Assembly: GCF_037975245.1 (NCBI RefSeq)
Contig: NC_092562.1
Span: 21,281,054-21,345,053, forward strand
Direction: 5' to 3'
Length of the DNA: 64,000 nucleotides
Source: Apostichopus japonicus
Taxonomy: Eukaryota > Echinodermata > Holothuroidea > Aspidochirotida > Stichopodidae
Shown: positions 2,932 through 61,046 of the stretch, piece after piece
Numbering within the stretch: the stretch's first letter is position 1
Layout of the letters: every line of letters begins with the position of its first letter
Position numbers and translations under genes: made by a program
Notes under the pieces: model-generated
The model's input: only the letters and a program-made list of their open reading frames with translations
Database searches by the model: none
Told to the model about the DNA's origin: nothing

Positions 2932-5900
2932 TCAAAACTGAGGAAATGTTCTTGTCGGTTTGTAGTATTGATCAGTGTTACCAAGCTTGAGTCGAAGGTT
3001 GTTAATTTCCTCTCTGTACCTGTTAAGAAAAGAGAAATAGTTGAGACATTTAACCATTTGTATCGTCATCAATTCCATATTCTATCGGTCATCCATCAAG
3101 GATATCAAGTTGACATGTTTGTCTTAAAGCTAAGGAACTAGAAACATTTTTTTTAACCTTTTCTCACAAATGAAGTCACACAAAGGTTTGTTTGAGCACC
3201 ACATGAAAATGGCCTCTCACTCGACATCGTCGAAAACTGTCAAATACATTGAAATCAGTTTGAAAATACTAAACTTAGCAACGAAAGGTGCATAGTTAGT
3301 GCAGAGAATTTATGTAACCTAGTCATACTTAATTGATATATTGAAAAAGTTCAATCCTTAGTTGCCAGATGATTTGTGAACTTACCTAGGAATTTCTTTC
3401 CTGATGTATCTACTGCTCTCTGCTAGTTGTTCTTCCAGGAGGGCATTACTGGCTAGTAATGAAGCTCTCTCCTTCTCAATCTCCTCCTATGTCAGGGAGA
3501 AGAAGAAGAAACTACTGTCTGATTGATTCAAATGTAACCAGTAATTGCTGAGTACATTATAATCAGTAACTTCAGACTGAAGTTACAATCTGCAACTGAT
3601 CGCCGGTTTATAATTCTAACTGATAGAAATACACAGGAAGAATAAAGAGGTATAATCTTTACAAATGTTACTGTTTCATACAATTACTGGTTCATGGTGG
3701 GCAATTTATCAACCAGTTCTGTTTGTCAACCCACTGTGCCACAATCGCAACCATTCCGATTGCAAACTTGATTATAGTCTGTATAAGAATCATGGAGCAA
3801 TCACCAACCACATAGCCAGCACACATAATACAAACACTGGACTATCAAACTACCGATCAATCTTGAGTATTATATATAAGACTGGAAAACTATAAACTTC
3901 AGCTTGTATGAAGCAGTGGGCAAACCTGAACAGAAAATCAGACACAATTAGAAGTAAAGTACCCATTCCATAGCATGCCACTTTAAACTTCAAGAGAATA
4001 CTCTTATGAGCTATGGGAATCCAATACAAGGATCCAAATTTGAAAATCAAAAACTTTTATTTTTCAGCCAAATTGTTTTGTATGATTTTTTCAATATTTC
4101 AATACCCTTTATGATTTTTTCAAATTTTGGCCAAAATCATGACTTTTTTATTTCTTTCCAAAATAATGCGTGGAATCGGTGACACCCTTCTGATGACCTG
4201 CCAGTCAACAATAATCTCATAATCCGTCCCCATTTTGAAAATTGGACCAAGTTTTTGACAAAATGTCAAATATCATTTTCATATTTTGAGGCTTAAAATT
4301 CCATAGAATGCCATTTTTAATTTCAAGAGGATACTCCTATGAGCTATGGGTATTTCAAACGAGGATCTAAATTTCAAAACTTTTATTTTTTGGCCAATTA
4401 TTTTGTAAATTTCAAAAATGTTTAGAGGCTTAAACTTCCATAAAAAAACACTTTTAACTGGATTAACTCACCTGTTGTTCTTGAAACTTGGCCTTCATAA
4501 CGTCCAATGACTTATCACTAACTCTGAAATAAAATAAAACAACCAAAAGTTTCTTCTTGTTATTATATTGAGATCTGCTCAAATAGAATCTTGCTATACC
4601 TTTGCCAAATGATTGAGGGAATCAGGACTGTAGCCAGGTAGCCATTACAATGTCATATTTACTGTATTGAGCAACAACACATATTCCGGCTATCCATAAA
4701 GACCTCTGGTAAAATCAGAAAGCAGGCTCACATCTGAGACAGCAGAGACAACTTAACTAATCTTCAATCACACATTATTTTGGCCAATCATAAAGACCTA
4801 GGGTTTAGTCAGAAAGCAGGCTCACATCTGAGACAGCAGAGACAACTTAACTAATCTTCAATCACACATTATTTTGGCCAATCATAAAGACCTAGGGTTT
4901 AGTCAGAAAGCAGGCTCACATCTGAGAGAGCAAAGATATCTTAACTAATCTTCAATATTGATTTGTCAAATCATCCAAAACTTCAGGTAAAGTGATGCTA
5001 TATTTGACTATTTTTTGGGCCTTAGGCAATCAGGGAGACATAAATTTGCTTCATGCAAGTGTTAGATGATTTCACACTTTAGGAACACAGGCAAGCAAAC
5101 GATTGCATTTATACAGACCGATGGAAATATCTACTAGCAGTGTATATTTAAATTTAAGTAGGAGAGAATCATTGATTGAATCTGGTGGCATTAGTACCAC
5201 AAAGAGATAACTGGTTGCAAGCTTTGCTCACTTAATATGGAAAGATACTAGAGCAGTGTCCTAAGCGGTCTGTTCTGTCAAATGACATCGCCAAGAAATA
5301 AACAACAAATTGAAAATTACATACAAAAATTATGCAACAGCACTGCATGCAACAAATCTTTTAAAATAGTTTTATTTTGATTGTGATGCTATAGTTATTT
5401 CAACAGACATCATTTCATATCTCAAAAAATTACATCCCTGTGTCTTCACTTATATCTAACATTCTAAAAACACACCAGTTGTGAAATCTGTATGTTTGTC
5501 TTTGTTCTTGCAAATGCTGCAATTAGGATACTATTCTTAAGTCACCTTAAACATTTAATAGATTGTACAAAATAATTTTAAAGTGTCGACCCTGCACACA
5601 CTTTCGAGAAGTATAGAGTAAACTATTCTATCTGAATGGAGATTCAGTGATAATCTCTGGTCCTGATACCTTGGATACATGTCCAGAACATTCCATACTT
5701 TGATTGTTTTACCAAAGAGATGAATATGCAAAAAAATCTAAACTCACCCATCTGCTTTCATCTTATTCAGTTCATTTGTCACAGACTGGAGTTTTACTGC
5801 CAACTGTGTTAATTCTTTCCGATTACTGGATTCAAGACTGGCCTCTGATAAACTCAATTCGTATTCCTCTGGTCCAAGATCAAAGTCATTGAAATCTTCA

Positions 5901-8900
5901 ACCTGTTTCTTGAGCATTCTGAAATAATAAAATAAAACATGAATTAAAAATCCGCAGACAATGCTCCCGCCACCCATTGCATGATGTTAATGCTATCTGA
6001 ATTTATCAGCAAAGTATTACAACAGCATTATGTGGTAATGCACCATTCACCAACGGGGCAACATATCACCATGATCATGTACCCCAATGTGATGATCACA
6101 AGGGGTTAAGTACAACACCACACATCATGCTACACCATATATGCACATGACATGATGAAGTGGTAAAAACACCAATGTTACTGCACAGAACTGCTACATA
6201 CTCTACCCATCATAATGTCAAGAGAACGAAGCAGCCCTACAAACCGAACAGCATCCATCTCCCCGGATCAATTACTATGATGTTGAGACAGGCTATAGAG
6301 CTGACGAGAAGAGGGGCAAGGGTGGGGCTAATAAAGGGACCCAGCGAAATATGGGATAAAGAATACTGTTTCTCATATGTCTATATATGTATCATGAATT
6401 TATGAAGTGTTTAGGAAAGAGGTCAGTGACATACTTGTCCCAGAGACTAACCGCATCCATTGGCAGAGTAGCACCATCATGTCACATATAACATCTCTCC
6501 TAGATTTTCTATGGTTTGATCAAAGAGCAAATTAGCACCTTTGTCATACCATCAATGCTCCATACACTAGTAACATGGTCCAGGGAACAAAGTAGCACCA
6601 TGATCAAACACCAACTAATTTGCCAATGTTATGATCAAGCAACAACAGCAATGTTCCAGACAATCACATGATCCAGGACTAAAGTAACGACATGACCAAA
6701 CGTTAATGATCCATACAACACTCATATGATGGGAGGTTTATGAAGCACCATTACCACAGAGTAACGTGTAACATATCCTTCAAGAATCGACATTGCAGGA
6801 AAGTCATAGGAATTACTCTCATTTACATACAAATCATTCCTCCTTGAGATGATCTTAATAACTGACAATGTGACGTCTCTTACCTGTATGCTACAAGGAG
6901 TTCTTCATGTTTCTTGGCCACTCTCTGTGCTTGTTGTCTATAGTTGCGGGCCGCATCGCTTAATTGTTTCTCTCGGCTACGATACGTCTGTTTCAGTTCG
7001 TCTGTAATCTGATCCACGGTTCCTCTTAAAATCTGTCCTGCATTCGGCATCTTAGAACTCTGTTCCACAAAGTTCTTTGAGACAATGACATTAAAGAGGT
7101 ACTGTTAACGACTAAGCAATACGTGGAGATTATAGTGAGCAGTAAATCAACCTTAAGGCCCGGTCACACTATACCGATTTTTTATCGGAATACTATCCGA
7201 TTTTCCCAGAGGATTCGAAACAGCCTGTTTTCCGTTCGGATCTTCTAGCCACAGTGATAAAGGACCTGATTTGCTATCTGTTGAGCCATTCCGATGTGGA
7301 ATAGCCCTCTCCTAACTTTTGATATTGACTCCGTTTCCCTTTATCGGATAGCTATCCGATTTCTCTTCCGATTTTTATCCTTTTTCGATGTGACGTCACT
7401 TCAGAATGTAGTCAGTTCTAGAACCCCTCAGATTTGAAGTAGGCATTCGAATATTCCACTGCATTCATTACATTCACTACCACAAACCTCACTCTTCGGC
7501 CTAAAATCGGAAAAATCGGACCGTATTCCGATAAAATATCGCTGTAGTGTGACCGGGCCTTTAGTATCATCAATGTAACTGATTGTGTTGGCAATATCTC
7601 AAAGATTTGAACACAAAATATATTGTTAACTTGTCTAAGAATTACACAGCAGAAGATTATGTCCTGCACAAAGTTTGTAATTCTCAAAACCAATATCAAT
7701 GCTTTAAGCATGAGACATATGGCACTTTTACAACAACTGTACATTGGCTGAGTCTAATTCATGAACAAAGATTTGAGCCCCTAATGAGTTACTGCATATC
7801 AGAATGAAAAAAAATACATACATTTACTTCAGACAAATAATGAAAAAATTTGTACTTCACCAGCTCGAACAAACAAAGTCTGTAATAATTATACACATAT
7901 AAATGTAAGTTTAGTGACTCGTAAAACTATTTTTTACTTCTAAGCAGAGAAAGCTCTTTGTTTTTAACTCCATCAAAGAATCATACACCTCTTACACATC
8001 AACGTGAAAAGGCGCATATTCATGAATAATTAAGACTCACAGTGACATCGTCGAGATATTTTTGAAGTCTTCTCCTGTGTTCACTATTCTTCTCTTTAAT
8101 CTGAAGATGAAGACTACTAATCTCTCTCCCCATCTCCTTTCCTTCCTCTTTCTTCATCATTAGTTCCTGTAAATGATACAACTTGAAGATAGATGAGGGT
8201 AATCTTGGACATATGATTCAGCAAATGTTTATATCTGAATCAAGCTAATATGCCAACGATACACTTCCATGATATTTATGGGCCTTATTTTTTTACATAT
8301 CAAACTCAGTTTGAACACTGATATTACAAGCCTTCTATTTCAAACTTATGGTGCTAGTATAAATTCTTCCAACCAGAAATTAAGTGCTTCTCATATAATG
8401 TGATTTTATTTTTTATTTTTTATAATCATACATAACAGTTATTTCTATACATTGCTTCCAACAGAAGCCAACACACTATGCTGGTTTCACATTGCAAGGA
8501 CACCAGATAAATCTGGTGAAGAATTTTTTCCAGAAAATGTCAGTGCCCAAATGATCTTCAATGAGCTATAGGGAAAGTCAGGACCTATCCAAAATTTACC
8601 AATCTTACCAATCTCCTATGCAGATTGAGTTTCAAAGTCAATAGCACGGCCATTGCATTAAAGTTCCATAATAACAACCTACCACTTCCTGTTGGGCTAA
8701 TTTTCTCTGGGCGTCAAGAGCTTGTACCTTGGATTTCTGAACGCTATCGTTTAACATCTTACTGCAAATGAGTAATGAAAATGTAACGTGTCAGGAATCT
8801 TTGCTACAGTATGTATTAAAAATACTAAACTGTATTTAAATTAAAGTAAAGAAGGACAAAACTTAGGAAACTTATCAGAATTCAAAAGATGCTTTTAGCT

Positions 8901-11900
8901 AGCTTGAAAGAATCAATATGGGGTTATTAAGAGGCCATGAAGGTTGTGGTACTAGTTCTTCTCTTAAATGATCCTGCTTACAGTTCAACGTTAACTGGTA
9001 CTAGAAAATGTAACCAAATCAGCATCGGGAAATGAGAATCGTACCAAAACGTGATGCAAGAGTTAAAAAAAAGCGAGGTTGTAACAATGAACTCAAGAGT
9101 GCAGGTGGTCCTGTGCTCAACCAAACCAACCCTAACTTAGGGGTATTCATAATTCTTGAGCATTCATCAACGTTCTTAACACCTCATGTGAAACAAGTTT
9201 AACTCAAACACCCTTTTCAATATCATATTCAAAATGGTTTTTCGTGCGATCTACTCACATCTGGTTTTCAAGAGTAGTCTGCTGTTGCTCGTAAACCATC
9301 TTCATCTTCTCAGTCTCTCTCCTGAATTGTCCCTTATCACCAGAGAGGATGCCTGCACGGTCCCGGACTGGAACATCATTTACCTTTACCAATGAAATTT
9401 AAGAGAAAAAAATTAACGTTAGAAAAGGTTTAGTAGCAAAAAATGTTTAAACTGGCCTGGCAAATTCAATTCTGTGAAACATTGACTTGCTTTGTGTCCT
9501 ATGCATCATGTTTCCCCCATCCTGTACATGACACTCATACAGTACCTTCTCTACCCCCCTCCCCCTCAGCTAAATCTTTACTGTAAACTTGATGGACAGC
9601 GATGGTATATGGAAATGAAACCGCTTTGCTTTGTTTACTGGTAGTAAAGCAGTTTAGAAATCAGTACAAGAGGTTTTGAACTGAAAAGCTAAGACCAGTT
9701 GTCACAGGTTACCAATCTTACATGGTTTTCAAATAAAGACAAGCTGCTGGCTGCTTAGGCATCATGTCAATAAAGAAAAGTGGCAGCCCATCCTAAAATC
9801 CTGTCGTAGCAAGCCTGAATTAAAAATCAAACCATAGAACCTACCTCTTGCAGACCAGCAGTGCCTTTTATGTAATATGCAGAATACAAACTATTAGGTC
9901 TTACGCTGTCTGGCTGCAGTGATGCTGCAGACCCACCTCAGCGTCTGACGCGGTTCCTCACAAATACCGGGTCTGACTTACCTTTTCACGATCTGCTGCG
10001 AGGCCGAGGGCTATGTCCTTTATCTTCCTCAAATCTTCCGTTTCTGAATTCTTGAGATTTCCTTGTTGCTGTAGGAGGGCTACCTCTGCGTTGAGGAGAT
10101 TCAGCAATTCCATGCCTAACTCCCGGTTTCTTTTCACCTTAAATCAGGATAGAAGATTATGATGTAGGAATTGTATGAGAACAATATTTCTCTGTGTGTC
10201 CTGTGTGAATCTCAATCTGATTTTGTAAGGTTTTAGAGAGGTGACCGGCAAAAATGAGTGTCCGGTTGAATAGACCGGGCAATGAAAACAGTTCCTTTAA
10301 TACTTACAGAGTAGAAAGTTAAAAGGGAAATATTTCTTTGAGTTCTAATCTATAATAAATATATATCATTAAAACATATAAATATTACCGTAATGGGGCA
10401 CATTTTTAAGAAAAGCCTTCACAAAGACCTCTCTAAGATGAATCACTTAACAATTTTAAAACTTTCAAAACCTTCTACTTAAGTCTTTTGACCTAATGGG
10501 TCAAATAAATGTTATCTATGTGTCGATCTCACGTACCTCTAGGTCATGTTTTCTGATTAGTCCTGCATAGTTGTCCTCCAGTTCAGCATACTGCATGGAT
10601 AAGTTATGAGTCTGACTAATGTTACCTGCGGCTCGCCGACGATCAATCCTCTCTTGTAACAGCTGGCTTTCACATGACATTAACTGAAAAGTACAAAGTA
10701 AGTATTTAGGATAAAAGCAATGTCAGGGACATAGAGAAAAAATATATATTCTGGTAAAAAAACCAATCCAATAGTAAAATTTATCTTTCATTAGTTAGGT
10801 GACTATGTTTTAGCTTCAGGGGCATGGATGGGGTGACCTGTGGGCAGGGAAGGGCATAGTTCCCCACCTCCATCACCAATCCAGGGAAAACATTCAGTCG
10901 AGCGCTGTTGTAACAATTCAAGTGTATTTATTATTAGTAGTACAAACTTGTGCTGAGACCTAATTTATAGTATAAATATGCCTCCAGAAATGCACCATTG
11001 ACTTTGTATTTTTTCTGGGGGAACCCCAAGAACCCCTTCATGAGAACCCCCTAAAGACTACACCACCACCCTCTACTTTGACAAATCCTTGATCGGCCGC
11101 AGGACCTTCCATAAAGGTCCATGCTCTTACCTTAATCAGTTGGGGGGGGGGGGGTGCATGCCACAGCTTAGGTTGGCAGCACTTTCAATCCTCCCTTTTC
11201 TGAGCTTTCACAAAAACAATTATACATTTGGCCAAACTTATCAAGCAAAGAAATAGAAAACATTATCTTTAAAAGATTGTGTGTATATAGCCCAAAACCC
11301 TCCAACAAAAGACAAGAACGGTTTAATCTTATGTTCACTTTTGACAATTAATCACAGCGTACTAGCCATGAGCAGTGCCTTACCTTGTTTTTAAGTTCAA
11401 AGTTTTCTTGGTGTAGCCCATCTCGGTGGTGGCTGTTTTCGATCTTGAAATCCACGAGGGATCTTGACGCCCTTAGCCTTTCCTCCTCGCTAGAGATGAG
11501 TCTGCTGGAGAGGTCTTCCTTCGCAGCAACGACATCGCTGAACTGATTCTCAAGACGATCTAATTTTCTGGACAGATATTGGTTCTCCATCCTCAACCTT
11601 GACTGAAAACAAGAGGATAGGATATCACAAATAACTAAAAGATCAAATGTTTTCACTGATTAAAAAAGCCACAATGTTCTCTCTCTTTGGTGAATACGCA
11701 CAAAAAACAAAGACATCAGCGATGTATTTTGACTCCTTTTTAATAAAGTTTGTTGATCACGGATTGGTTAAATTAACGAGGAATTTTGGAGAAAAGTATA
11801 GTCTGTCTTTGACAACAGCTTGGTTAATGTAACAAATTGGTCCACCTCATCTTTGTTTGTCTTAAAGGTCAGATAACATTTGTTTCATTAATCTGTTATA

Positions 11901-14900
11901 ATTTATGTTTTTCCTATATGCCAAATTCTTGTAAAACATCACAGTGATGAGTATGAGTTATACTTACGATGCTGTATAGAATTCCACATCTGTAGCACAT
12001 TATTTTAAAATTTCAAACTTTCCTTCCAAGTTCCTTTGACAACCACTCATGAAATGCTTATATATTAACATCACCAGAAGTTTGCCCATAACTTTAATAA
12101 CCATCTGATGCTCTTGTCCTGGTTCCTGGCTTTATAAATCCTTAGCCTGAGGATATCCTTTCCATTTAATTCCTACCCTAAGCATATACTTCCCTTTTTC
12201 CTGTCACACTAAAGGTGTCATTTCCCTTTATAGCAATCATATGAATGTTCTTGCTTCATTATAGGGGGAATAATTTAGAGTTCAAAAGTTTGTGTAGCAG
12301 TTTTGAAGGCTTTCAACTTTGTCTCTTGTTGTGAAGTACTATGGTTTCTGTGTGCAAAAACTGATGTACATCTTTGCACTTGTTTATAGCAATTTGATCA
12401 ATTTGTATAGCATTCTGCCATGCGAACACTGGATAACTTACTCCCTGTTATACCATCTATGGTATGCTGTTGATTACTAACAGTGACCATAAGTATGCCC
12501 TCCTTTATGTAACAACAATGAATAAATCTGATTGTAAAAAAAGGAATTTTGTGATGGTTTCCTTAAAGTACTCTCCACAGATATGTAGGTAGTTTATTCT
12601 ACCTACCACTTCCGCTTCATTTCCTGGTGGATCCCTATTAACGGTCATCTGAGAAGATTGCGCCCCAAGTCTTCTCTGCAAGCTCAGTTGCCTGGCCCGC
12701 ATGCCTCCAATTAGCCCCTTAATGAAATGAAAGAAGATACGCAGGTCCTTTAAAACCTGGCATTTTGGGGTTTGATTTATCAGAACAAATTCATATTTTG
12801 TAAAGAGAAATTCTTCATGTCATTGAACATAGTATATTGCTACTAAATATGTAACGATCAGAAATAATGTAAACGAGTGACTTATTTTCGAACACATAGT
12901 CAACTAACCTGAGCAGCGACATCATTTAATATAAAATAATTCTTCACTTGGGAAAGAAGACTTGAAAATTGCAACAAATTTCTGACGCTCGTTTCAGTGG
13001 ATGTCGGTTTAAAATGAACCATCACTTTCGTCTTGGAATTTCCTCCAAACGAATCTTGAAGGAGATTGACAGCTTTGGACTCACTGACAAAATAAAATAG
13101 AGAAAAAAGCAAAATAAGACAACCTTAAATGTATAATTAAAATTAGAGCACCTCACTGCTGTGACTAAAGTTTATAAGATCCCAGAACATATCTGTCATG
13201 GATATGGTCAGAGACCTAAAATGACTTGCAACATCAAAAGGCACAAAAGGCAAAGTATTTCTTTCAATGAAGTTTGCGACCAAACCCTGTATCAGTTGGG
13301 TCGGTATTGTCCAAACGACCTCTTGATCAGAACTCTCAATTGTTACCTTGTTCTGATACCTAGCTAGAGAAATTCCATTGTAAATTTAACATTGAATAGG
13401 TATTGTAACTGAAGTGACGTGAATGAACCTTTGAGAGTATTGGGTTAATTAATAGCATTAGGACTAATTTGTAAGCAAACTCTTGTCTCTTTTATTTTCA
13501 TTTGTTTATCATAAATCTGTTACTGTATCTAGAAATATCACTGTTACTCTGTAATGGACATAATAACTTGTCTACTGTGTATGCATACATTATTCTGAGG
13601 GAGTATTAGGGCCAGTCTGCCAATGACATACTGCCTAATTTCTCAAGTCTTTTTATTTTCCTTTGATTATCATAAATCTGCTAAAGTATCTGTAAATATT
13701 GTTGTAACTCTGCATAGACATGGTCACTTAACTATCGAGTATGCATGTAAGTTAGCATGAGGGAGTATTAAGGCCTAACAATCTGCTACAGTATCTGTAA
13801 ATATTCATTGTATTCATGTTTGGGCATTGTAACTTACAGTAACTACTGTGTATGCATATATGAGTCAGTCTGAGGGAGTATTAGGCCAGTTTGACCAAAG
13901 CATACTGACGAAATTTCTCAGAAAATGCAGTTGTTTTATTTTCTTTCTCTTTTAACATAAATCCACAGACCGCATTTCACCAACCTGAAGTCTACACCTT
14001 CAGTTTCATCCGGTGACCTACTAAGGTTATCCAACAGTTTTTTCATCGCATTTAAAGTTTTATCAATCTGTTTCTCATCATCCCTCCTTGATTCTTGACC
14101 GTCTGTTTTGAAGCTATTGAAGGCCGGTAGTTCTACCAGAGTCAAGAAACTACGATGAGGAAAGCCAAACTGGTTGTTATCCTTCAAAGCAAGAAAAAAA
14201 ATCACATTTTCATCTGAGACCTGTTGAGGTATAAAAAAACTATACAGATGGTAACTCCAGAAGAGAGCAATGCCAAAATGAGTTGATGTGGGCTGAGAAA
14301 CTTATCTGCAAAGAAAGCATTATCAACATTAATTTCTTTCATTAATTTTTGTTCAGTTGATTTCAAATCCAACAGAATTCATTTCCAGCATAATGTAAAC
14401 AGAAAATAAAAAAACATTTAAAGAATAAAAAATTCACATTGAGTTTTCAGCCTGTGATATTAAAAGTTCCTTAACAGCTCAATTTTCCCCAAAGATATTA
14501 CAACAGCTAAATCCAGAAATAAAGTTCAGCTTCTGGCAAAAGCTTTTTTTTCCATTTGTAGATAGCTTATGATACTTCAAAAGTTCAAGATATAAACTTA
14601 ATGCCATAAGCTTTCTATTTTCCCACCAACCTCTGAAAATAATTGTATGTCCAATCTTAGTCTTTTATCCAGGTCAAAGAGGGAAAACACCTTTTGTTGT
14701 GAATACGATGTTACATTAAAAGAAAATGAGATGGTCTAATTACTGTTACGGCCTCAAATTGAATGATAACTGTGCCTTTATCTTCATTGTCTGAATGGCT
14801 GTTTGTTCTCCGGTTCCAACCGTTCTTCAGATTCATGAAAATGTGATCCTCGTCAGCGACTGGTATACTTGTTGCATTCTGTGTAGAAAATAATAATTTA

Positions 14901-17477
14901 AATATTAAGACTAAATGCATTGCTAAAGTAAATAACAAATATGTAAATGCATCAAAGTATAATAACCGAATGGTTAGCTTTAGACTAAGGCCTACTTGGC
15001 AGAGCCAAATTAATATTTAATGCAAATTAAGTTTTTATCTAAATAACAGAATGTCTGTCATCAATGGACCATTCTGGCTGAGGGTGCAAGTTTTAATCAA
15101 CACGAAATGATCGAATGATGAGTGTATGACTTATTCAGTGATTTCCCTTGCAAAATATCTGAGGGAAAAAAGAAGCAATTGAAAAGCTTCTTTTGTGGGG
15201 AAAAGTGCACAAATCCGTAGAAAGATGTGTTAAATTTTAATAATGGTTTTATAATGACTGTACACAGCCAATGATGAAACTGTTGACAAAGACATGTGCA
15301 CAACATGCTGTGACACCAATATCTCCAAATATATTTGGCAAGGCCCAGATTTAAGTTCTGTAGATGAGATCAATGTATGCAACACCAATATCAATACATG
15401 TTTCATCCTCTATCCAGCAAAACACTTATTTGAAGACCTTTGCAATGTGAGCAACATCACTATGACAACAACATCACCGAATATATGATAAAGGCAAAGC
15501 TCATGGAGAAATCTGCAGAGCTGATGATAACGTAAGCAGCCCCATAGTGACAACGACATCATTATATATCACCCCTGTAGCAAAACCACACGGGTGAAGC
15601 TTCTCACAATTTACAAGTAACACCATAGTAACACCGACGTATATCACATGGTGTATGGCTATGAAGGGGTCAATACTTACTTTTACATGGAACCAGTCTT
15701 TTGAAGTACATCCCAATTCTCCTGGTTGACTTGTTGGTTTAAGAAGGTCTTTTACCACTTCTTTATATACTTCGTACAATTTCATATGAACAGCAATACT
15801 CGGTAATGACGTTAGCACTCCTGTGGAAGGAACACAGCCAGCAAACATGAAATGATTTATCATCATTCATTTAAAATCTACTATTAAAATCTACTTTTAA
15901 ATTCATTTAAAATCTACATTTAAAATCTACTGTTTTCTATTGTCTTTCAATTTTACCATCTTATTTTACTCAAACTTGATATTTTTTTTGTTGAGAAGTA
16001 TGGTCCCTTTTTCTGCAGATCTAGTGTAATGTCCGAAATGAAGTAAAGTTTACACCGCCTGTCAATTTTGTATTAAATTACAAATGCTACAATCCAAGAC
16101 CTTTATGTCAAGGAAGTTACATACATTTCCAGTATACTAAGAAAATTACTGTTTCTAACAACAAAATTTTAAAGTTGCACATTCAATATTTGCAACTGGT
16201 AGTAGTGTTTGGGGATAGGTCACATGATAAAGACATGAACAAGATGAGTGAAAGACTTTGTTTACATCTATGTGAGTAGAGTAAACTTCATTAAATTTTC
16301 GCAAAGAACAAACCAACTAATCCTGATCGTCAAAGTATATATAGCAACAAAGCAATGAAACCAATAGGTCTTACCTTCTGCACTTTGTTTTATGTTCTGC
16401 AATAAATCTTGAATTGCAAAATGAGTGACTCCATTCTGACTTTGACTGTCACCAAGCAAGGTGAAACTCCTCCCAGACTGGCTCTCCCCCAAGCAAAAGA
16501 AAGAGAGATTATAGCCTGTCAGGAAGAGGTCCACCATTTGAGCTAAGCAGGTCTGGTACAAGTCTCTATTTGAAAAATCAGCATCAAACCATTCACTGAA
16601 ACTGTGACAAAGAAAAAAAAATGGATATTAAAGCTGTATAGTGTGTGGCTCATGAGGAGATGATGCTTACTACCCATGCAAGATTGAAAACATATTACTG
16701 TAGGAACAGAGTGGTGAATTTAAAACCCAGCAATATAAAATTATTAGTATGTACAGTAAGAACTGTGATAGAGCGGGTACACACAGGGTTCAGAGGGCTT
16801 AAGCTAAGACTGCAAATCTCTTTCCCTTTATTCATCTGTGTGCATGTACTGTACATACTGTACATGTGTATGCGAATTTGTGTGTACACTGGGGAGGGAG
16901 AAAGGTGGGAGATGTTTTTCTTCACAAACTATATACAGTACTGTTTTTGCTTAACGCCCGTTGAAAATTTTTTAACGATCGTCAAATTTCGATAAAAATC
17001 CATAAAATTCCAGGTGCCGATATAGACTACTTGAGAATTTTTCAACGATTTTACGCGATTTTCAACGTTCCGCGAAGCCACAGTTTGACCTCGCATTTCG
17101 TTGAAAATACATTTTCAACGCATCGTTGAAAAATCAACGAACGCAGTGACTTAAAATCCCAATCGTTGAAAATCGATAAATTTCGATAAAATGCGATAAA
17201 TTTTGATAAAAATCGTCGAAATTTGTGGAATTTTTTTTCAACGAATTTAAACGGGCGTTAAGCGAAACAGTACTGTAATTGTAATAAATTGGTATATCCA
17301 GCAAAGAGAAGAGTCACTTGAATACAATTCCCTTCTAAGTGGTTACAAGAATTTACATTTAAATTACCTGTGAGATGTTTCAGCCACTTCCACAGTGTTC
17401 TCCAAAACTTTAAACACAGGGTTGCCAGTCTCTCCCCTTAACAGGGGGCGAATCCTTCCAAAAACTTCAATGTTCAT
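2932..17477 (-). CDS. CCDC78: CCDC78 homologue: kinesin-motor-like domain plus coiled coil, 18 coding exons, 849 aa
   Basis: Exons (minus strand, 5' to 3'): 17477-17368, 16601-16375, 15820-15681, 14878-14744, 14181-13985, 13083-12909, 12717-12607, 11602-11384, 10683-10537, 10137-9982, 9383-9259, 8761-8683, 8166-8041, 7074-6884, 5918-5748, 4523-4472, 3486-3386, 3019-2932 (stop). All junctions are GT-AG, phases join, and the sum is 2550 nt. The start ATG opens with MNIEVFGRIRPLL, typical of a kinesin motor beta1. Residues about 1-330 are motor-like: a P-loop-like segment at 75-82 (GESQSGRS), a switch II position at 221-226 reading ELPAFN, and a conserved helix LQDSFGGNSKT at 278-288. Residues 366-438 resemble the DUF4472 segment of CCDC78 (SSEEERLRASRSLVDFKIEN). 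From about 440 to 845 the protein is charged coiled coil, ending YREEINNLRLKLG. CCDC78 is known in vertebrates from deuterosome-dependent centriole amplification in multiciliated cells; that role is inferred here. Human CCDC78 is, from memory, about half this length. The exon 4 donor could lie 6 nt earlier (exon end 14750), without changing the frame. The family could alternatively be named as a kinesin-like protein. Confidence 0.86.
3967..4400. repeat. Diverged duplicated block in CCDC78 intron 16
   Basis: The block around CCATAGCATGCCACTTTAAA, followed by AGAGAATACTCTTATGAGCT at about 3967-4068, recurs in diverged form at about 4302-4400, a spacing of some 335 bp. Both copies end in CTTTTATTTTT and GGCC/AGCC-type sequence. 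The segment lies in the intron between exons 17 and 16. Confidence 0.75.
4695..4950. repeat. Tandem array, about 94-bp unit, roughly three copies (CCDC78 intron 15)
   Basis: CAGAAAGCAGGCTCACATCT occurs near 4716, 4810 and 4903, with intervening TTAACTAATCTTCAATCACA and TTTTGGCCAATCATAAAGAC segments repeated. The copies are close to identical, so the expansion is recent. It is a simple tandem array without coding content. Confidence 0.92.
6000..6790. repeat. Degenerate minisatellite-like stretch (CCDC78 intron 14)
   Basis: Short recurring phrases such as AGTAGCACCATGATCAA, AACATGGTCCAGG, ACATGATCCAGGACTAAAGT and AACACTCATATGATG recur every 50-70 bp with heavy divergence. I read this as an old, decayed tandem array. 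A spurious 81-codon plus-strand frame at 6160 falls in it and is not convincing as a gene. Confidence 0.5.
7156..7560. mobile_element. TTA-flanked MITE (PIF/Harbinger-like) in CCDC78 intron 13
   Basis: The termini AGGCCCGGTCACACTA and its inverted complement TAGTGTGACCGGGCCT match exactly for 16 bp and continue imperfectly through ATCGGAAT for about 35 bp. The 405-bp element is flanked by TTA at 7153-7155 and 7561-7563, the 3-bp target duplication expected for PIF/Harbinger transposons. The interior has several short ATCCGATTTT/ATCGGA palindromes and no transposase frame. Confidence 0.85.
11384..11602 (-). other. CCDC78: CCDC78 exon 8, DUF4472-type coiled-coil segment
   Basis: This 73-codon, phase-0 exon begins SRLRMENQYLSRKLDRLENQ and contains the run SEEERLRASRSLVDFKIEN. 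I recognise that as the conserved DUF4472 signature of CCDC78 proteins, and it is the main reason for naming the gene CCDC78 rather than a generic kinesin. It follows directly after the motor-like region. The heptad spacing of Leu/Ile and the high Glu/Arg/Lys content indicate a coiled coil. Confidence 0.8.
13480..13925. repeat. Three diverged tandem copies beside CCDC78 exon 5
   Basis: Segments containing ATCATAAATCTG, AGTATCTGTAAATAT, GTGTATGCATA and TGAGGGAGTATTAGG recur three times with periods near 150-190 bp. The array ends about 60 bp from the donor of exon 5 (exon end 13985). There is no coding content. Confidence 0.85.
15290..15665. repeat. Degenerate short-period repeat next to CCDC78 exon 3
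   Basis: Phrases such as ACACCAATATCTCC, CAACACCAATATCAATA, ATAGTGACAACGACATCA and ATAGTAACACCGACG recur with drift along about 370 bp. I interpret it as an old minisatellite adjoining the donor side of exon 3 (15681). It has no coding value. Confidence 0.45.
16934..17277. mobile_element. CAGTA-type MITE with TA target site in CCDC78 intron 1
   Basis: The left end TACAGTACTG leads into TTTTTGCTTAACGCCCGTTG. The right end, inverted, reads TACAGTACTGTTTCGCTTAA followed by CGCCCGTTT. Terminal TA on both sides fits the TA target of Tc1/mariner/pogo elements, many of which begin CAGT. The 340-bp interior is made of nested AACGAT/ATCGTT and TCGATAAA palindromes and has no coding sequence. Confidence 0.85.
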
Positions 17478-17800
17478 TTTACTTGTCTGTCGTCACACAG
17501 GACCATGTTCTGGTCAACAAAACAAGACACAAATTGGAATAATTAGTACGTATTAATACATGTTTATGTGGAGAAAGAACATTAATGTTGATGTGAAGGA
17601 AATAAGTCAGTTAATTTTGTGCATCATTGCTATATTTAAACACCAAAGTGAAATAATATAGAGAAGGCAAAATAACTTGAAAAATCTATAAAGCTCTGTC
17701 CAATAATGATACATCACTTTAACAACCTGTTATTTATGTTCCGTGTACAGAACATTTAAAGTAAAAATTCATAGGCTAGCCTATTTCTATGTTTTGAAAG

Positions 17801-19103
17801 TATAGTCAGTATTGCGAAGTTCGGCATACTGCGAAGTTCGGACCACCCTAAGAAATACACGATTTCACCATGAAAACCTACAGGAAGAGCCAAATTTCAC
17901 CAAAAAGTACGAAGCTACAGTTATTTTCTCTCCAAAATGACCCGTGTGCAAGAAATTACTTACATATTTGTCAATAAAATGACGAAGATCTATGAAGTCT
18001 GTTATAATAACTGAAAGAGCAACTGCGCCACCAATTTTATCACCAGCGCCACACTGTAGGTTGCGTGTCCGAACTTCGCAATACTCTAGCAAAGAAATAC
18101 AGTTCCACAATCGCGAAGAATCTTCTTGGAAAACAACGTGAAAACAGTTTGCAGGAAAGAAAGTTTGGCCATGTATCGTACTATAACAAAATTCTCCCAC
18201 CATTTGAAGTATATTTTCAGGTGATTTATACCAGAAGATTTAGTTTTGGGGTGTTTTAAGTCTTAAGTGGCCGAACTTCGAAGTCACCATCCTACTGTAA
18301 CAAAAACCTGCCCACCAGAGTCCAACAACAAATGCAACACAAATAAATACAATTGAGGATTTAAAGCTCTTTGCCAACAATTGCTTAAAACAAAATACTG
18401 TAGATACAGTTAGGAATGTAGCATCTACTCTTTGAACTAAAGTAAATTACAGAACTGTGGACATAAATTCAACTCACATAATTAAGTAGGCTTTAGAACC
18501 TGACCCACTCATGCCCTGTAGCCAGGACAGCTCTAAACTATAAATACTACATAATCAAGCAGACTTTGTCCTGACCACCTTGGAATAAAACAACAGCTAT
18601 GAAAGAAACTGTAGGATGGTGACTTCGAAGTTCGCCCACTTAAGACTTAAAACACCCCAAAACTAAATCTTCTGGTATAAATCACCAGAAAATATACTTC
18701 ATATGGTGGGAGAATTGTGTTTTAGTACGATACACCGCCAAACTTTCTTTCCTGCAAACTGTTTTCACGTTGTTTTCCAAGAAAATTCTTCGTGATTGTG
18801 GAACTGGTATTTCTTGCTAGAGTATTGCGAATTTCGGCCACGCAACCTACAGTGTGGCGCTGGTAAAAATTGGTGGCGCTGTTGCTTTTTCAGTAATTAT
18901 AACAGACTTCATAGATCTTTCGTCATTTTATTGACAAATATGTAAGTAATTTCTTGCACACGGGTCATTTTGGAGAGAAAATAACTGTAGCTTCGTAATT
19001 TTTCGTGAAATTGGCTGTTGCTATAGGTTGTCATGGTGAAATCGTGTGTTTCTTAAGGGTGGCCGATTTTCGCAGTATGGCGAACTTCGCAATACTGACT
19101 ATA
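17801..19103. mobile_element. 1.3-kb inverted pair of about 500-bp repeat units upstream of CCDC78
   Basis: The left arm 17801-18299 is the inverted complement of the right arm 18608-19103, separated by about 308 bp. Outer ends are TATAGTCAGTATTGCGAAG and CTTCGCAATACTGACTATA. Inner ends contain TAGGATGGTGACTTCGAAGT on one side and its complement on the other. Because each arm carries CGAAGTTCGG at both its own ends, each may be one MITE copy, so this could be two inverted insertions rather than one palindrome. The arms differ by scattered substitutions. It starts 324 bp upstream of the CCDC78 ATG. Confidence 0.85.
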
Positions 19104-19542
19104 CTACAAAGTATGCCTAGGCTAGGCTGATGTAGCTCCATCATGGCTAATAGGACTCCCCTGTAATAACTAATATACATAGCAGTTTCCAATTTGTTTC
19201 CCTTCATGGTGCTACAATGTACAGTACTAGCTGATGCTTGCAGCAAGCCTTAGCACATCGATGAAATATAGCTTTATCATGCGAAGCTGTCAGTAGTCAA
19301 TTATTTCCCTGAAATGACTTTGCCATCAACCTGCTTAACTGTGTGCCGAGGCCTAGTAGTAACTCTGTAGCCTAAGTTAGGCTACCTCAACCCAGAGCCA
19401 TAATCAGAAATAACCTGTCTAGCCATACCTTTGCGTTACACTAAAGCCCGGGTCCCATTTACGCAACAAAAGATTAAACTTTCAACAAAATCGCGCTTTC
19501 TCGGTATCAACTTTCGACATAACTGTTCTATTCCCACACGCA

Positions 19543-21045: not shown

Positions 21046-21140
21046 GCATACCCGAGACTTGCAGTTTGCATTTAGTGTGCCCCACCACAGTTTGCATTTA
21101 GTGTGCCCGACCACAGTTTGCATTTAGTGGGCCCTACAAC
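21046..21140. repeat. Short tandem repeat, about 31-bp unit, three copies
   Basis: CAGTTTGCATTTAGTGTGCC occurs at 21060 and 21091 and, as CAGTTTGCATTTAGTGGGCC, at about 21114, each followed by a CCAC-type linker. The copies are nearly identical, so this is a young minisatellite. Confidence 0.85.
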
Positions 21141-22479
21141 AGCATTTCAAAGTTTATCCCAGAAGTCTGTGAAGCACTGTACCATTCATTGGCTCAAGGA
21201 TGACCAGCTGAAGGTAACTTCGATCATAAAAGTCTGTCTTCTTCAATGTTTTCACTTGAAAGCATAGTCTGAGCAGGGAGTTGTTATTTGAAAGGAGAGA
21301 CAATTGCAACAATTTTTTTGAGGCTAACTAGTTAGTAAACACAATATCTCAAGAGAGAAAGATATGATGAATCGCATATTTGACATGTGGATGTCCCATA
21401 TTAAGTAGAAGACCCCTACAGATTTTGTAAACACCAGGCATGGGGTGATTACATGTGAAATGTAACAGCACAGATTGGAGATACCCATGCCATAGAAAAT
21501 GGAATGATTAAGTCCTAACTTAGTTATTATCTAAATGTCTGGACACATACCTTCAGTAATCTAAAAATAACAATTCCATCTTCTGAACTTTGCAGCAAAA
21601 ACATTGAACAATAACAGCTGATGACCAGCATAAAGCACCAAGCTTTACCAGTTGACATTCTTATTCTTATTAAAGTTTAATACTCTGATGCACTTAACAA
21701 ATACATATAGCACAATCCATTTCACTTTCTGTGTCATGGCAGCAACAAAACAGAGAATGTGAAAGCCAATGGTTACTGTTTGCAGACTTTATTAAGAAAC
21801 TCTGCAATTAAGCAGAGATAACTTACACTTAATTCTGTCATATCTTGTAGTCTGTGCAGTCTGGGAGTTTAATTACTAGAAAATAATTTACAAATTTTTA
21901 TTGCTATATATTCACTTGCAAATCATAGATCAATATGTTTGATGTCCATACAGCAGAAGATATGAATCAAATAGCCGAGACAGACTCCTAAAGCTGTTAA
22001 CAGCTAGATCGCTATAGGCATGCTATACCTGCCTTACACAAGAGGTGAGGATTGGATGTCAAGGAGCTGTGATAAAGGCAGAGCAGATAGCACTGAAAGG
22101 ACCACTTTGCCTTTTTTTTAAATTTACAAATCATCAGAGAATAAGTATTACTGACAAGTTCTGTAATTCCCATTGTAACAGCATAACACACCTGGGAAGG
22201 CAAAGAACATGCTTCCAAGTATGTTTTGTAAAGTTCATAGATGATACACATATTTCATGTCAAAGCATTTACTAAGTACTGCTACCTGCAGCAATAGCAA
22301 TATCTCAGAGTCCCATTTTATCAGACTGGGCTCATTTTGCTTCATTTGTCCAGCTTCTTTCTACGACGGTTGTTCTACAAAGCCCTCCTTCTTTGAACCC
22401 TCAGCTGGAGGAGGAGCATCGATGGGAGATGGGAACAGAGACTCTGGAATGAAGAGGAATCATTCTCAAGGTACCTGCC

Positions 22480-25400
22480 TCAAACATCAAATCTCTCTTG
22501 GCAAATGGACTGCCCGTGCTCTTCAAACTCTTTCTTTGTAACACACATAGAACTGAAGTCATCCTTCTGCGATAGCTTCTTTCCTCCCTGCCAGCTGTGA
22601 GTAATGGCGCTGGTAAAGAAAAACGAAAACGAGGCATATGATCATGGTTCCTCCACTTTCCCACAAAACTTGTTCACATCTTTGAAAAATTGTCCATAAC
22701 CAATTGTTTAATTTTAATGATATCTTGTACCATCATCACTGTTGATAATTGCTTTGAAACAAGGTGAAAACAATCATGAATTTTCTAAATGTCAGATTTC
22801 ATAAAGTGATTCACAAGTTGTCTGATGATATTTTATCCAAATTCATCATCACTCTGAACTCTTTTTGACAAAATTCATGACTATTTGTATGTCTTAAAAT
22901 GCCTCTCACATGACCCATAACTTTGAAAAACTTTCCACCACAATGGAAACCTCAACCCTTGTATACATAAAGACTATATGGAACAGTCTCCATGTTATCC
23001 AAACAGGTACTGTAAGAATCTTCACTGATTAAGTTGAAAGTGAACAGTTAACTTACTTCTCTGGCAGGGTTACTTTCACTTCATAATCCAGTGGGGCCAT
23101 CGCCCTTACGTCTCGTTCCACCCTCTCCTTGAATCCAGGAAACAGACTGTTACCTCCAGTTAGGATGATGTTTTTGAACAGGTGGGGTCTCATATCTGGT
23201 GGCAAAAATACAAATGCAAATTAAATTTCGAGATACAAATTACATTACTATTACAACACTCTCTGAGCAGCTAACAAATTAACTGCATATTATTTGACTT
23301 CATTAGAAATATATTCACAGAGGGCAAGTTTGTGACTCGAAAGTAAGACAATGTAAAAAGAATGTACCAAAATAGAATCAAAAGCTTGAAGCTTGAAAGA
23401 AACTCTGAAGGGATTGACAATTTTTGGGAATTTCTACTTTTAATGAACCATGGCCAGTAACTCCCAAACAGACTGACTTCTGAAATCTAATGCTCATGGT
23501 TTCTAGTAGAATACAGAAGATAAACATTTTATGCCGAGGAAAGCGGCTCAATTGATTGACCAAGACAGTGATTTCAACTTGCCTAATCTTTGCCTGCAAC
23601 AGTGCTTCTGATTGTACCAAACAAACTTCTCATGACAACAATTAACTTTGTGCCTTTTGTAACTGTGCAATAATCATGTGCCTTCACTCCTGTTTAAAGT
23701 GACTAAAACCAAAAACTAATTTCTGGAAGAAAGACACTACTCCTTTGTTTCCAAAGAAGACCTCTTAATGACCTTTGCCTCCTTTTTTATGCACTTATGA
23801 ATGATTATGTTCACTAGAAACAATGATACCTTAAAAAAAAATTATAAAAAAATACCAATTTTGATTTATATTCATCTATAGAAACTTTTGATTATCCCTG
23901 AAACATCAAGGACATAACTAGATTCTGGCAAGGTCTACACAATCATCTCAAAGTTTAATATTTCACAGCAAAGATGCCAAAAACTCTACCTTCTTGAACC
24001 AGTCCAATGCAATAAACTATAGCCTCAGGAATTCCCATTTCATGAATACTAACATCAGATGGGTTGAACAGCACCTCAGGCACAGCAAACCTCTCATTAT
24101 TCAAACGGATTACCTGTGAAGCACATGAAAGAGATGCCTTTTGAAACATGTAGAATGTTTTAAGAAAAAATATATAAAATGTTCTATCATCTGTTTGTCA
24201 CATAGCCAGATGGAATTCATTCATGCCGTATGTAAATAACTATGTCGTGTGTGTCCAGGGCGAGTTTGAATGCCGGATTATCTGGACTACGCGAGGAAAA
24301 TTTGCATAAAAATGACTATAGCATTGACATTAGCGGTAATGGTAGGGTTTTCCATGGTAATCTATTAAAGAAATATGTTGAAGGACAGGTGCTAGGCGAG
24401 CATCTTGAAGTTCTTTCAGCAGGTTTTATACTAGATACTGCAGGGGCATGTCTTATAGTTGAAGGGGATACCCAGGAAATTGGCGAACTAGATTTTGAGA
24501 TGCCACCGGTTGGGGTGTAATGAGTCATTTCGTGATGCCCAGATGAACCAGGAATTGATTAGTTCTAGCAGAGATGAAATCTGTGATCAGGGATGAAATC
24601 GTTGATCTGCTATCGACATTTAGTGACGTTTGACTGACCCACCTAACGTGACTAATCTCAAAGAGTATGCGCTGCAGCTCGTAATAAGAGAACCTATCAG
24701 GTGTAGGCCACACCCCCTGCCTGTTCACGCCCGAGCAGCGGTAGAAATGAAATTGACATTATGCTCAAACTAGAGCCCTCTCAGTCGCCATATTCCTCCC
24801 GGTAGTGCTCGTTAGGTAAAGGGATGGGACCAATATTCATTTCCGTAAATTGAACAAAATTGCCTTGTTTGACCCAGAGCTGGTACCCAGTGTAGAAAAT
24901 CTAATGGTTGAAGTAGCAGAAGGGAAAATTTTCACAAAACTGGACCTTAGTAAGGGCTTGTGGCAGATTCCCATTCCTACTGAGGAATGGTGAAACACTG
25001 CTTTTGCAACTCATAATGGGTTGTACCAGTTTAAAGTCTTGCCTTTCGGAGTAGTTAATGCCTCGGCTGTATTTACTTGGATGGTTTTTTACCTAGATCC
25101 CAATCTTAACTTTCTTGTAACAGACTGTTGAGGAAGGTATTATTTTCGCTAGTTATAGATTTCTCCATACTCAAAACACTGCGCAGAACATTACATGTTT
25201 GCTCTCTTCTGCCTGCCCTTCTGACCTCACAAAAACTATTACATAGTAGTATTTGTTACCAATTTCTACCCCCTTTGGAGATGGAAAATGGAGACGGAGT
25301 TGGAATTTTCTTAACATTAGAATTGTTAATTTTCACATTATTGAAAGTCAACTCTACATGTCCCTTGACCTTTAAGTTAATATACTGTATGAATGTAACA

Positions 25401-28400
25401 CTGTGTCAGTCCGATATATTATAATATCAAAATATTTATGTGTAAGGGTTTATGGTGTTATGTGTACACTCTAACATTTTTGTTATTCTATTATTCCTCT
25501 TGCAGGGTTTTCCTGTCCACCACCTTACGTAACCTGTGACACTGATGTCACGTAATGACATGAAATCAATACTATGTTTGTTGCATTAAATGTCGCAAAA
25601 GATGTGTTTTAAAATATAATATCCTGAGAAAGCTCTTGCAAATTGAATATCAACATCCTGTGTATTACAGACTATTGAAGGCATTTCACGATAACAAAAC
25701 AGTTTAGTCTGACAGTTCGCCACCCAAGTTAATGCACTTAAACAGTATTACTCACTGATAATTGTGAGCCTTTAGAAATATGACCACAAGAAGAGAATGA
25801 ACCTTAGTTTACTGTACCTGTTCAGTACTGGATGCTGTTGAGTCTTGGCCCTTCATGTAACCTCGTCTGATTTGCTGGAAGTCTGGTAGTACATAATCTC
25901 TGACAATTGTGTTCTCTGGACCCTTCAGCCTACGGCAACAAGAAAAAGCGGTTTGCTCGATTTGTCATAAGAGCAAATTGTAGCACAGCCTTACATAATA
26001 TTGTTAATTATCGCTTGTTTGGTTAATGTATATTTCTGTTACAACAGACAATAGTTCTAAAATGTGTCTGCTGTTCATCACAAATTGTCCTTTACAGTCT
26101 TCCATATTATTGTTGACTATTTACTGTTCATCTTACATGTTTCTGTTATAACAGATAGTGGTTCTAAATTGTGTCTGCAGTTAATTTGAGAATAGGAAAA
26201 TGCACTGCAACATCACACATGTATAATTGACAATGAAAGAGCCCACAATATTTTCAGAATCTCTCCAGGATGTAGCCACCTTTGACAATATCTTCTCTTC
26301 AGCCCTAGACTTATCTATCTTTTGCTTTAGATATATGTTCGCATATCTACTTTCAACCCCTGCCCCCACCCCCACCCCCTTAAGTAAAGCCAAGAGAGAG
26401 AAACTTAAATAATAGTGATCGTTCCACAAAGGAATTCATTTTCATTTTGCCATGTAAACTCTTGATATATGTATGCATAAACACTTACTTGGATATTTCC
26501 ATATCTTTCATAAATTGTGATGATACGAAGCAAGCATCTTCCTTGACTTGGTTTATGACGTAAGTCTCATCCATGACATGCAGCTGTCGGTACGACAGAA
26601 TCTCCTTCAAGTGGTTTGTTAAGAGCTTTCCTCCAACATTTATCCTAAAAAATAAAAAATAAAACAGAACAAAAGAAGAATAAAAATTCAACATTTACAT
26701 ACTATGACCAAAGGACGATAATGTTTCTTATTCTTATTCAAGAAACCGTTTACATCAGGGCTGTGCAGGAATCAGGTTGATACAGGTCACCATCATATTT
26801 TGTACCCAAACATTTCATTTCAGAAACACCTAATTTATCTTGGCTGGTACATTTCGTGCAGTTGCCATAAAATTTGATGCCTTAAACAAAATCAGCTAGT
26901 TTGAAGCGGTGTTCTATAATTGGCAAAAAAGAAGACAAAAAACCCCAAAACAGGGCACACAAGAACAATATACAGTACCCATTTGTTACTTTAGTAACAA
27001 TAATGATAATAATAATAATGAGGATTTGTAAAACACAGACATATCCACTGAAAACGGTGCTCAAGGCGCACAACAATATTACCCTGGTCAACGATAACAT
27101 GTCAAACATAGAGACAATCCTTCCACATGGCAGCAGCTAAACAGCGCCCAGCTGACAGTTTTATCTCACAGGTCCCCATTTATACACCTGGGTGAAGAGA
27201 GGCAATGGAGATGAAGTGCCGTGCCCAAGAACACAACGTAATGATCTGGCCAGGACTTGAAACCTGCAATCATTAGATCATAAGTCCACTGCCTTAACCA
27301 CTTGACCATAATGCTCTTATTTGTCAGACATTGTAAACACATTTCATCTACACGTCTGACTTTTGTGTTGCTGGAGTACTAACTTTTTGCAAGTTTGAGA
27401 CATACACACATATGGTGTAAAGTCTGTGTAACAAAGGAAACATGCTTTTCCACGACTCACCTTCGAATTGCTGATGATACTTTCTTCCCTTTGTGATATG
27501 GAGCGATGTGAGTAAAAGAGTAGCCACTCTCCACAACTAGACAACACTGTTCCTGTGGTTTATCTGTCATTTGTAAATAAGCACTCAGGGTACCAGCTAT
27601 GGGTAAAGGAAATATAAAACAATGAGGATAGAATTCAAGTTTTTAATCTATTCAAAATTATGCACCTGTAAATTGAGGGAAGGGGATGGGGGTGGGGAGT
27701 TTGGAGATTGGGTAGACAAAACAGAAAGATCATGATTGGAGACTAGTTTGAGACAATAATTTTGTACCCACAATCCACACTAGTTTTGTGGGACAACATG
27801 CTCAGGGAATAGCAGTCATGAGAGCATGTTACCCAAAATACACAAGAAAGCTATATTAAATATTGACCTTCCTGATGTGCATTTTACTACAACTTTTGCA
27901 CATTTTTACAATTAAGTTAATACACTTAATTACTTTGTTTCCCTTATTTATGAGTCCATTCAGATTGCAACCTTATTTGTGGATGTGCATGTTTCACCCA
28001 GCTGCTGCTCATGCCCAAGCAGTGTCCCAAAAGAGATGATGGAAATCTTAATACAGCATATGAGACCAATCACTGATTGGTCTGTAGAGTAAGGTCAAAT
28101 GACCCATGTGAGGAATAACACACAAAAAGTCGCCCATATCCCATTGATCTACCAAATGTTAGTATTACAGATTTGATGCTGCAACCTGCGGTGTAGATCT
28201 TGTCCAATTGATCTTGATTCAATTACTCTTTATCTAATTAATCTTGAGCTTGTCCATTTGGAAAAGATATGGGGATGACCATGGGAGGTGATTCTTGTCT
28301 GTTCTCTTACAAAGAACAATTTGCAACACCAAAAGTCAAAGACTAAACTGGTAAGGATGCAACCTCAGGAGCCCTTACAGAATGGAGATGTTTGTATGTG

Positions 28401-36437: not shown

Positions 36438-60455
<24,018 letters not shown>

Positions 60456-60918: not shown

Positions 60919-61046
60919 ATTGAAATTGTAGTGAGTTGGAAAATCCAGAACAGTGAAAAAATTTCCAGCCTCCATCGGGATTCAAACCCGGGCTTCCTGC
61001 TTTATATGCAGACACCCAAACCACTAGGCTAAGGGCACTGATTGTA
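60919..61046 (-). mobile_element. tRNA-derived SINE upstream of ZFYVE9
   Basis: Read on the minus strand from about 61046: an A box TTAGCCTAGTGGTTTGGG, an anticodon-like stem CTGC-ATATAAA-GCAG, a B box CGGGTTTGAATCCCG, then a unique body with TTTTCACTGTTCTGGATTTT and a TA-rich tail. The 5' and 3' acceptor-stem halves do not pair, so this is a SINE head rather than a working tRNA gene. Confidence 0.75.

Follow-up and report, generated by a model that had tools for sequence, protein, structure and literature searches.

The window analysed here is a 64,000 nt stretch of Apostichopus japonicus contig NC_092562.1 and contains, on its minus strand from 17477 to 2932, a predicted gene of 17 exons that we assembled by hand and whose ORF spans 825 residues. 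Exons were obtained by linking stop-free stretches wherever GT-AG borders agreed in phase, and the joined 17-exon frame is open throughout, from the start codon at 17477 to the stop codon at 2932; because borders and phases were the selection rule, they support the gene model but do not prove it. The interval 13985–17477, in which a first-pass annotation had recognised the kinesin-like domain of a CCDC78 protein, corresponds exactly to exons 1–5, the model continuing beyond it down to 2932. Also on the minus strand, the window contains a SARA/ZFYVE9-16 type gene (39788–54323) with three SARA_C exons, whose 781-codon ORF ends in the first half of a FYVE finger and which includes a GC-rich segment (52001–54000, 52.5%). 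Two probable actin-related exons, presumably resembling ACTR6, lie on the minus strand at 23958–24197, with an Actin match that stays under the curated cut-off (E = 0.0005), and at 28769–29074 (E = 1.3e-14), and the C-terminal dimerisation region of a hAT transposase at 30794–31102 (minus strand; E = 1.6e-5).

The motor region occupies the first six exons of the model, all of them, like the rest, on the minus strand. Exon 1 (17368–17477) supplies the start methionine, beta1 and the RxRP motif (R8-I-R-P11, 17456–17445), and the VFGRIRPLL that had been read at the start of the motor is indeed found there. Exon 2 (16375–16601) encodes GYNLSFFCLGESQSGRSFTLLG and has the P-loop at 16489–16466, with Arg in place of Lys; exon 3 (15681–15820) corresponds to the kinesin beta5/L8 region (KLYEVYKEVVKDLL); and exon 4 (14744–14878), whose 3′ end, and with it the length of the switch I loop, is uncertain, reaches the switch I region (NRRTNSHSDNEDKGTVIIQFEAVT). 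Exon 5 (13985–14220) encodes VSDENVIFFLALK, including ELPAFN at switch II (14133–14116) and the alpha4 region, and exon 6 (12909–13083) encodes ESKAVNLLQDSFGGNSKT (alpha5/L13), alpha6 and a neck-linker-like VKNYFILN. The second kinesin landmark of the annotation, LQDSFGGNSKT, is present, at 13061–13029, but belongs to exon 6 and falls outside 13985–17477. The DUF4472 coiled-coil part begins in exon 7 (11384–11602) and is completed in exon 8 (10537–10683). Exons 9–17 (2932–10137) of the hand-built model encode a coiled-coil-like part up to the stop codon and are located at 10137–9982, 9383–9259, 8761–8683 and 8166–8041 (exons 9–12), and at 7074–6884, 5918–5748, 4523–4472, 3486–3386 and 3019–2932 (exons 13–17). 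A minisatellite array with a 94-base unit (4695–4956) lies inside intron 14, and just upstream of the gene there is a large fold-back element (17799–19105), which may be a mobile element; its arms of about 500 bases are in four segments, 87–98% complementary, with 309 bases between the inner arms.

Exons 1–6 run through 341 codons with no stop or frameshift. The codon scores of these six exons (−0.26 to 0.08 bits per codon) overlap those of 63 stop-free stretches from introns (−0.98 to 0.07, median near −0.36), and the codon usage of the motor exons is not decisive on their coding status; when the SARA-type ORF served to train the model, the coiled-coil exons scored from −0.27 to 0.35.

Residues 1–341, encoded by exons 1–6, match the Pfam Kinesin profile (PF00225) with E = 1.9e-40 and 139.3 bits (cut-off 29.3); the match is undivided, covers positions 33–322 of 327 and is thus near full length; for the complete 825-aa ORF, the match has E = 1.6e-39. 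A HMMER search of solved structures retrieved as best match 3j8x, a kinesin-1 heavy chain that we take to be KIF5B (E = 4e-21). The search matched 156 distinct sequences at E values up to 10, of which the best 60 have kinesin names, counting as kinesin-family names, on our assumption, those of the CENP-E and claret entries. An NCBIfam profile search with the protein gave no match, and six peptide patterns, suited to finding close relatives only, yielded 15 pattern matches in bacterial and archaeal genomes and seven in viral contigs, none of which was confirmed. The near full-length Kinesin match suggests that the head may still fold.

Downstream of the motor, DUF4472, which we take to be the domain that marks CCDC78, is matched end to end in the 825-residue protein (profile positions 1–107 of 107, E = 2.4e-13), and the C-terminus presumably resembles that of human CCDC78 (HEELLVAYR). 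The CCDC78 identity previously proposed is thus supported by a complete DUF4472 in a frame-consistent gene model that also carries the motor; that is, a kinesin motor and a CCDC78 part are in one predicted gene.

To describe the nucleotide pocket we used KIF5B numbering and a list of sites taken to be those of KIF5B, and residues were read from a MAFFT alignment that was identical in three modes. The RxRP motif is fully kept (R14, R16 and P17; 3/3). The P-loop changes from GQTSSGKT to GESQSGRS, as previously read, so that both glycines are kept whereas Lys91 is replaced by Arg and Thr92 by Ser; with this Arg the sequence departs from the signature GxxxxGK[ST], and Arg in place of the P-loop Lys is usually crippling. 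For switch I, the signature NxxSSRSH is absent, with 0/6 positions kept in the MAFFT alignment. The residues opposite SSRSH are GTVII according to MAFFT and VSDEN according to HMMER, and the placement of this switch is alignment-dependent; switch I had earlier been described as not recognisable as NxxSSRSH, which holds for the motif, but the region can be roughly placed. At switch II, VELPAFN stands where kinesin-1 has VDLAGSE, with one of the six positions kept and with the loss of Asp, Gly and Glu; the absence of Asp and Gly from ELPAFN had been noticed before and is borne out by the alignment to kinesin-1. The closest solved relative by sequence, 3j8x, with 83/317 aligned residues identical, has intact GQTSSGKT, NEHSSRSH and DLAGSE motifs, whereas the head from the window lacks all three.

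Conservation was also quantified over the 186 columns that are identical in two kinesin-1 motors, 3j8x and 1goj, of which the window protein keeps 59. It retains 1/13 catalytic positions (six from switch I, six from switch II and the P-loop Lys, all of them kept in both controls by construction), compared to 58/173 of the other shared positions (Fisher p = 0.065), a difference that is only suggestive of a faster loss at catalytic sites than elsewhere. General divergence could therefore account for much of the motif loss. Motif by motif, RxRP keeps 3/3, the P-loop 2/5 shared positions, switch I 0/6 and switch II 1/6; since RxRP, the P-loop glycines and a P-loop Ser are kept, the pocket is partly, and not wholly, degraded. 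As judged from these alignments, the catalytic motifs common to the two active controls are lost in a domain that is otherwise of kinesin type, which is one of the features expected of Vik1/Cik1-like pseudokinesins. The first-pass annotation had proposed a pseudo-motor unlikely to hydrolyse ATP, and the sequence data agree: the head very probably lacks a kinesin-type ATPase, with room left for some weak, unusual activity.

Splice sites that would restore GKT, SSRSH or DLAGSE were sought in the reading frames, in the introns and with three ends of exon 4, and none was found. In the three minus-strand frames of 11000–18500, a scan for the patterns GK[ST] in a P-loop, SSRSH and DLAG found no intact motif; it returned GESQSGRS, ELPA, LQDSFGG and one unrelated DVAA. 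Likewise, the six introns scanned contained two GK[ST] tripeptides, both of them without the upstream P-loop glycine. The donor of exon 4 is the weakest of the 16 in the model, and this exon has four in-frame donors, the alternatives to the modelled end being at 14750, 14771 and 14861. The Kinesin match holds with each of the three ends compared in Pfam (139.3, 139.5 and 146.6 bits), and SSRSH is absent in all three; the highest score corresponds to the end at 14771, which nevertheless has the worst splice score. The donor at 14861, outside this three-end comparison, would remove most of exon 4. An in-frame ORF in intron 5 (13359–13216; 144 bases, 48 codons) was first included as an exon and then dropped, because with it the Kinesin score is 125.1 bits, against 139.3 without it, and the match breaks into two, and because it has the weakest splice sites. 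Its acceptor and donor score −4.45 and −2.03, against minima of −0.25 and 2.45 among the other 16 of each, with scores derived from our own gene model. Its codon usage is undecisive, with 7/63 intron stop-free stretches scoring higher in a set that includes the ORF's own region; if it were a real exon, the kinesin head would gain 48 residues close to loop 12, on the microtubule face.

For the microtubule face we considered nine kinesin-1 positions that we take to be microtubule contacts (141, 156, 161, 237, 240, 274, 278, 281 and 284). In the MAFFT alignment the window protein keeps two of these nine residues, K240 and K281; the control 1goj has exact residues at seven, and R141 and H274 at the other two. 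The stretch aligned to 237–312 (L11–L13) has a net charge of −2, vs. 0 and +3 in the controls, and that aligned to 139–173 (L8) shows no loss (+1, vs. +1 in 3j8x and −1). The PF16796 ‘Microtubule binding’ profile, which we had presumed to be a link to a Vik1-like head, matches with 40.8 bits; it was rejected as such a sign because the profile gives stronger matches to both kinesin-1 controls (96.7 and 88.5 bits) and is therefore unspecific. With 2/9 of the presumed contacts kept, the earlier suggestion that the head might perhaps bind tubulin is weakened, and binding through the usual kinesin face appears possible but not favoured.

Vertebrate CCDC78 has a role in deuterosomes. According to a preprint (PMC11870508), vertebrate Ccdc78 is found at the tips of motile cilia, consists of coiled coil with no other domains, including no kinesin domain, and bundles microtubules; it therefore shares DUF4472 with the window protein, and only the latter has a kinesin head. 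In the same source, the Tetrahymena protein I7LVY1 is a homologue of CCDC78 that has a kinesin motor domain and is located at the ciliary tip (PMC11870508). As here, I7LVY1 combines a kinesin domain and CCDC78 homology in one protein; the catalytic motifs are lost in the window head, the comparison with I7LVY1 being by description alone. The window gene thus looks like one that would fit between the motor-bearing Tetrahymena homologue and the motorless vertebrate Ccdc78. Human CCDC78 is also described as a candidate gene for a centronuclear myopathy (PMC11394131).

The yeast kinesin-14 partners Cik1 and Vik1 are reported to have heads that lack elements to bind and hydrolyse ATP, as here, and yet possess a microtubule site; the Cik1 head renders Kar3 processive, and Kar3 is said to use the non-catalytic head as a foothold (PMC4338441). 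Unlike the window protein, these partners lack a CCDC78 part, and the microtubule site shown in them is doubtful in the window head. A fungal ‘pseudoKinesin-21’ group is named in the literature, where Kif26b is also called an ‘atypical kinesin’. A literature search over titles and abstract openings found no description of an animal CCDC78 pseudo-motor and returned no paper for DUF4472, and CCDC78 was not mentioned in the available text of one review. Costal-2, VAB-8 and KIF26, which we take to be animal kinesins without normal motor activity, presumably belong to different families and have different tails.

The reading that we prefer, to which we give about an even chance, is that this animal CCDC78 uses its N-terminal kinesin-type pseudo-motor as a structural head in a non-motile scaffold of the cilium tip. 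Unable to run the kinesin ATPase cycle, such a head would not let the protein walk, and the protein would most likely be a non-motile tip scaffold; its ciliary role, carried over by analogy from vertebrates and a ciliate, is probable. Since the vertebrate protein has no head and bundles microtubules nonetheless, microtubule binding is likely to fall to the coiled coil, which may bind and bundle microtubules here as it does in vertebrates; in that case the head would be either an accessory part that is folded, or a relic. As an accessory part, it might hold partners or help to pack the protein at the tip. The gene could then represent a stage from a motor-bearing ancestor toward the vertebrate protein, which has dropped the head. 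That animals long kept CCDC78 with a selected, non-motile structural tip head before vertebrates discarded it, in a series from motor to pseudo-motor to none, we consider plausible but somewhat short of even.

That vertebrates manage without the head would count against its being useful, and it could instead be a functionless relic under relaxed constraint, heading for loss as in vertebrates while the coiled coil does the work. The erosion of both catalytic (1/13) and microtubule-contact (2/9) residues is consistent with a relic, as are the identity of 83/317 to the 3j8x motor, a codon usage that is not clearly coding-like, and the headless bundling described for vertebrate Ccdc78 (PMC11870508). 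However, 341 codons without stop or frameshift, a Kinesin match that is near full length, and the retention of RxRP and LQDSFGGNSKT are not what a decaying head would lead one to expect, and we regard a relic as rather unlikely, if deserving of weight.

A head that binds nucleotide without hydrolysis and serves as a switch or clamp held by the nucleotide is improbable: RxRP is intact (3/3) and the P-loop frame, GxxxxGRS, is preserved, but the P-loop (2/5), switch I (0/6) and switch II (1/6) are poorly kept, and the change of the P-loop Lys to Arg is of a kind that is usually crippling. Even less probable is an arrangement like that of Vik1/Cik1, in which the coiled coil would join the protein to a catalytic kinesin and the non-catalytic head would serve as a foothold. 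The anatomy is of the same kind (PMC4338441) and Kifap3, an IFT kinesin subunit, is among the prey reported for Xenopus Ccdc78, but the most enriched prey is Ccdc33, which is not a kinesin head (PMC11870508), and the kept microtubule contacts are few (2/9). That the protein is an ordinary active kinesin, with motif losses due to wrong exon choice or sequence error, has a negligible probability, for although the end of exon 4 is uncertain, with the weakest donor, and the P-loop Lys/Arg change can be a single base, the P-loop and switch II sit within aligned exons, the motifs are missing from the skipped frames and with each of the three ends tried for exon 4, and the switch losses would need many base changes.

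Returning to the structural head, an inert kinesin head in animal CCDC78 would suggest that this tip protein descends from a kinesin, which would bear on how CCDC78 came to bundle microtubules without a recognised domain. Additionally, a CCDC78 with an inert head would allow testing both the remaining role of the head and the time at which motility was lost.

Elsewhere in the window, a tRNA-like Rfam match (60967–61036, minus strand; score 31.7, cut-off 29) may be a tRNA-derived repeat, and ARAGORN, with bacterial settings, called no tRNA there. Minisatellite arrays with units of 26, 138 and 230 bases occur at 21062–21142, 28369–28762 and 46775–47196, respectively.
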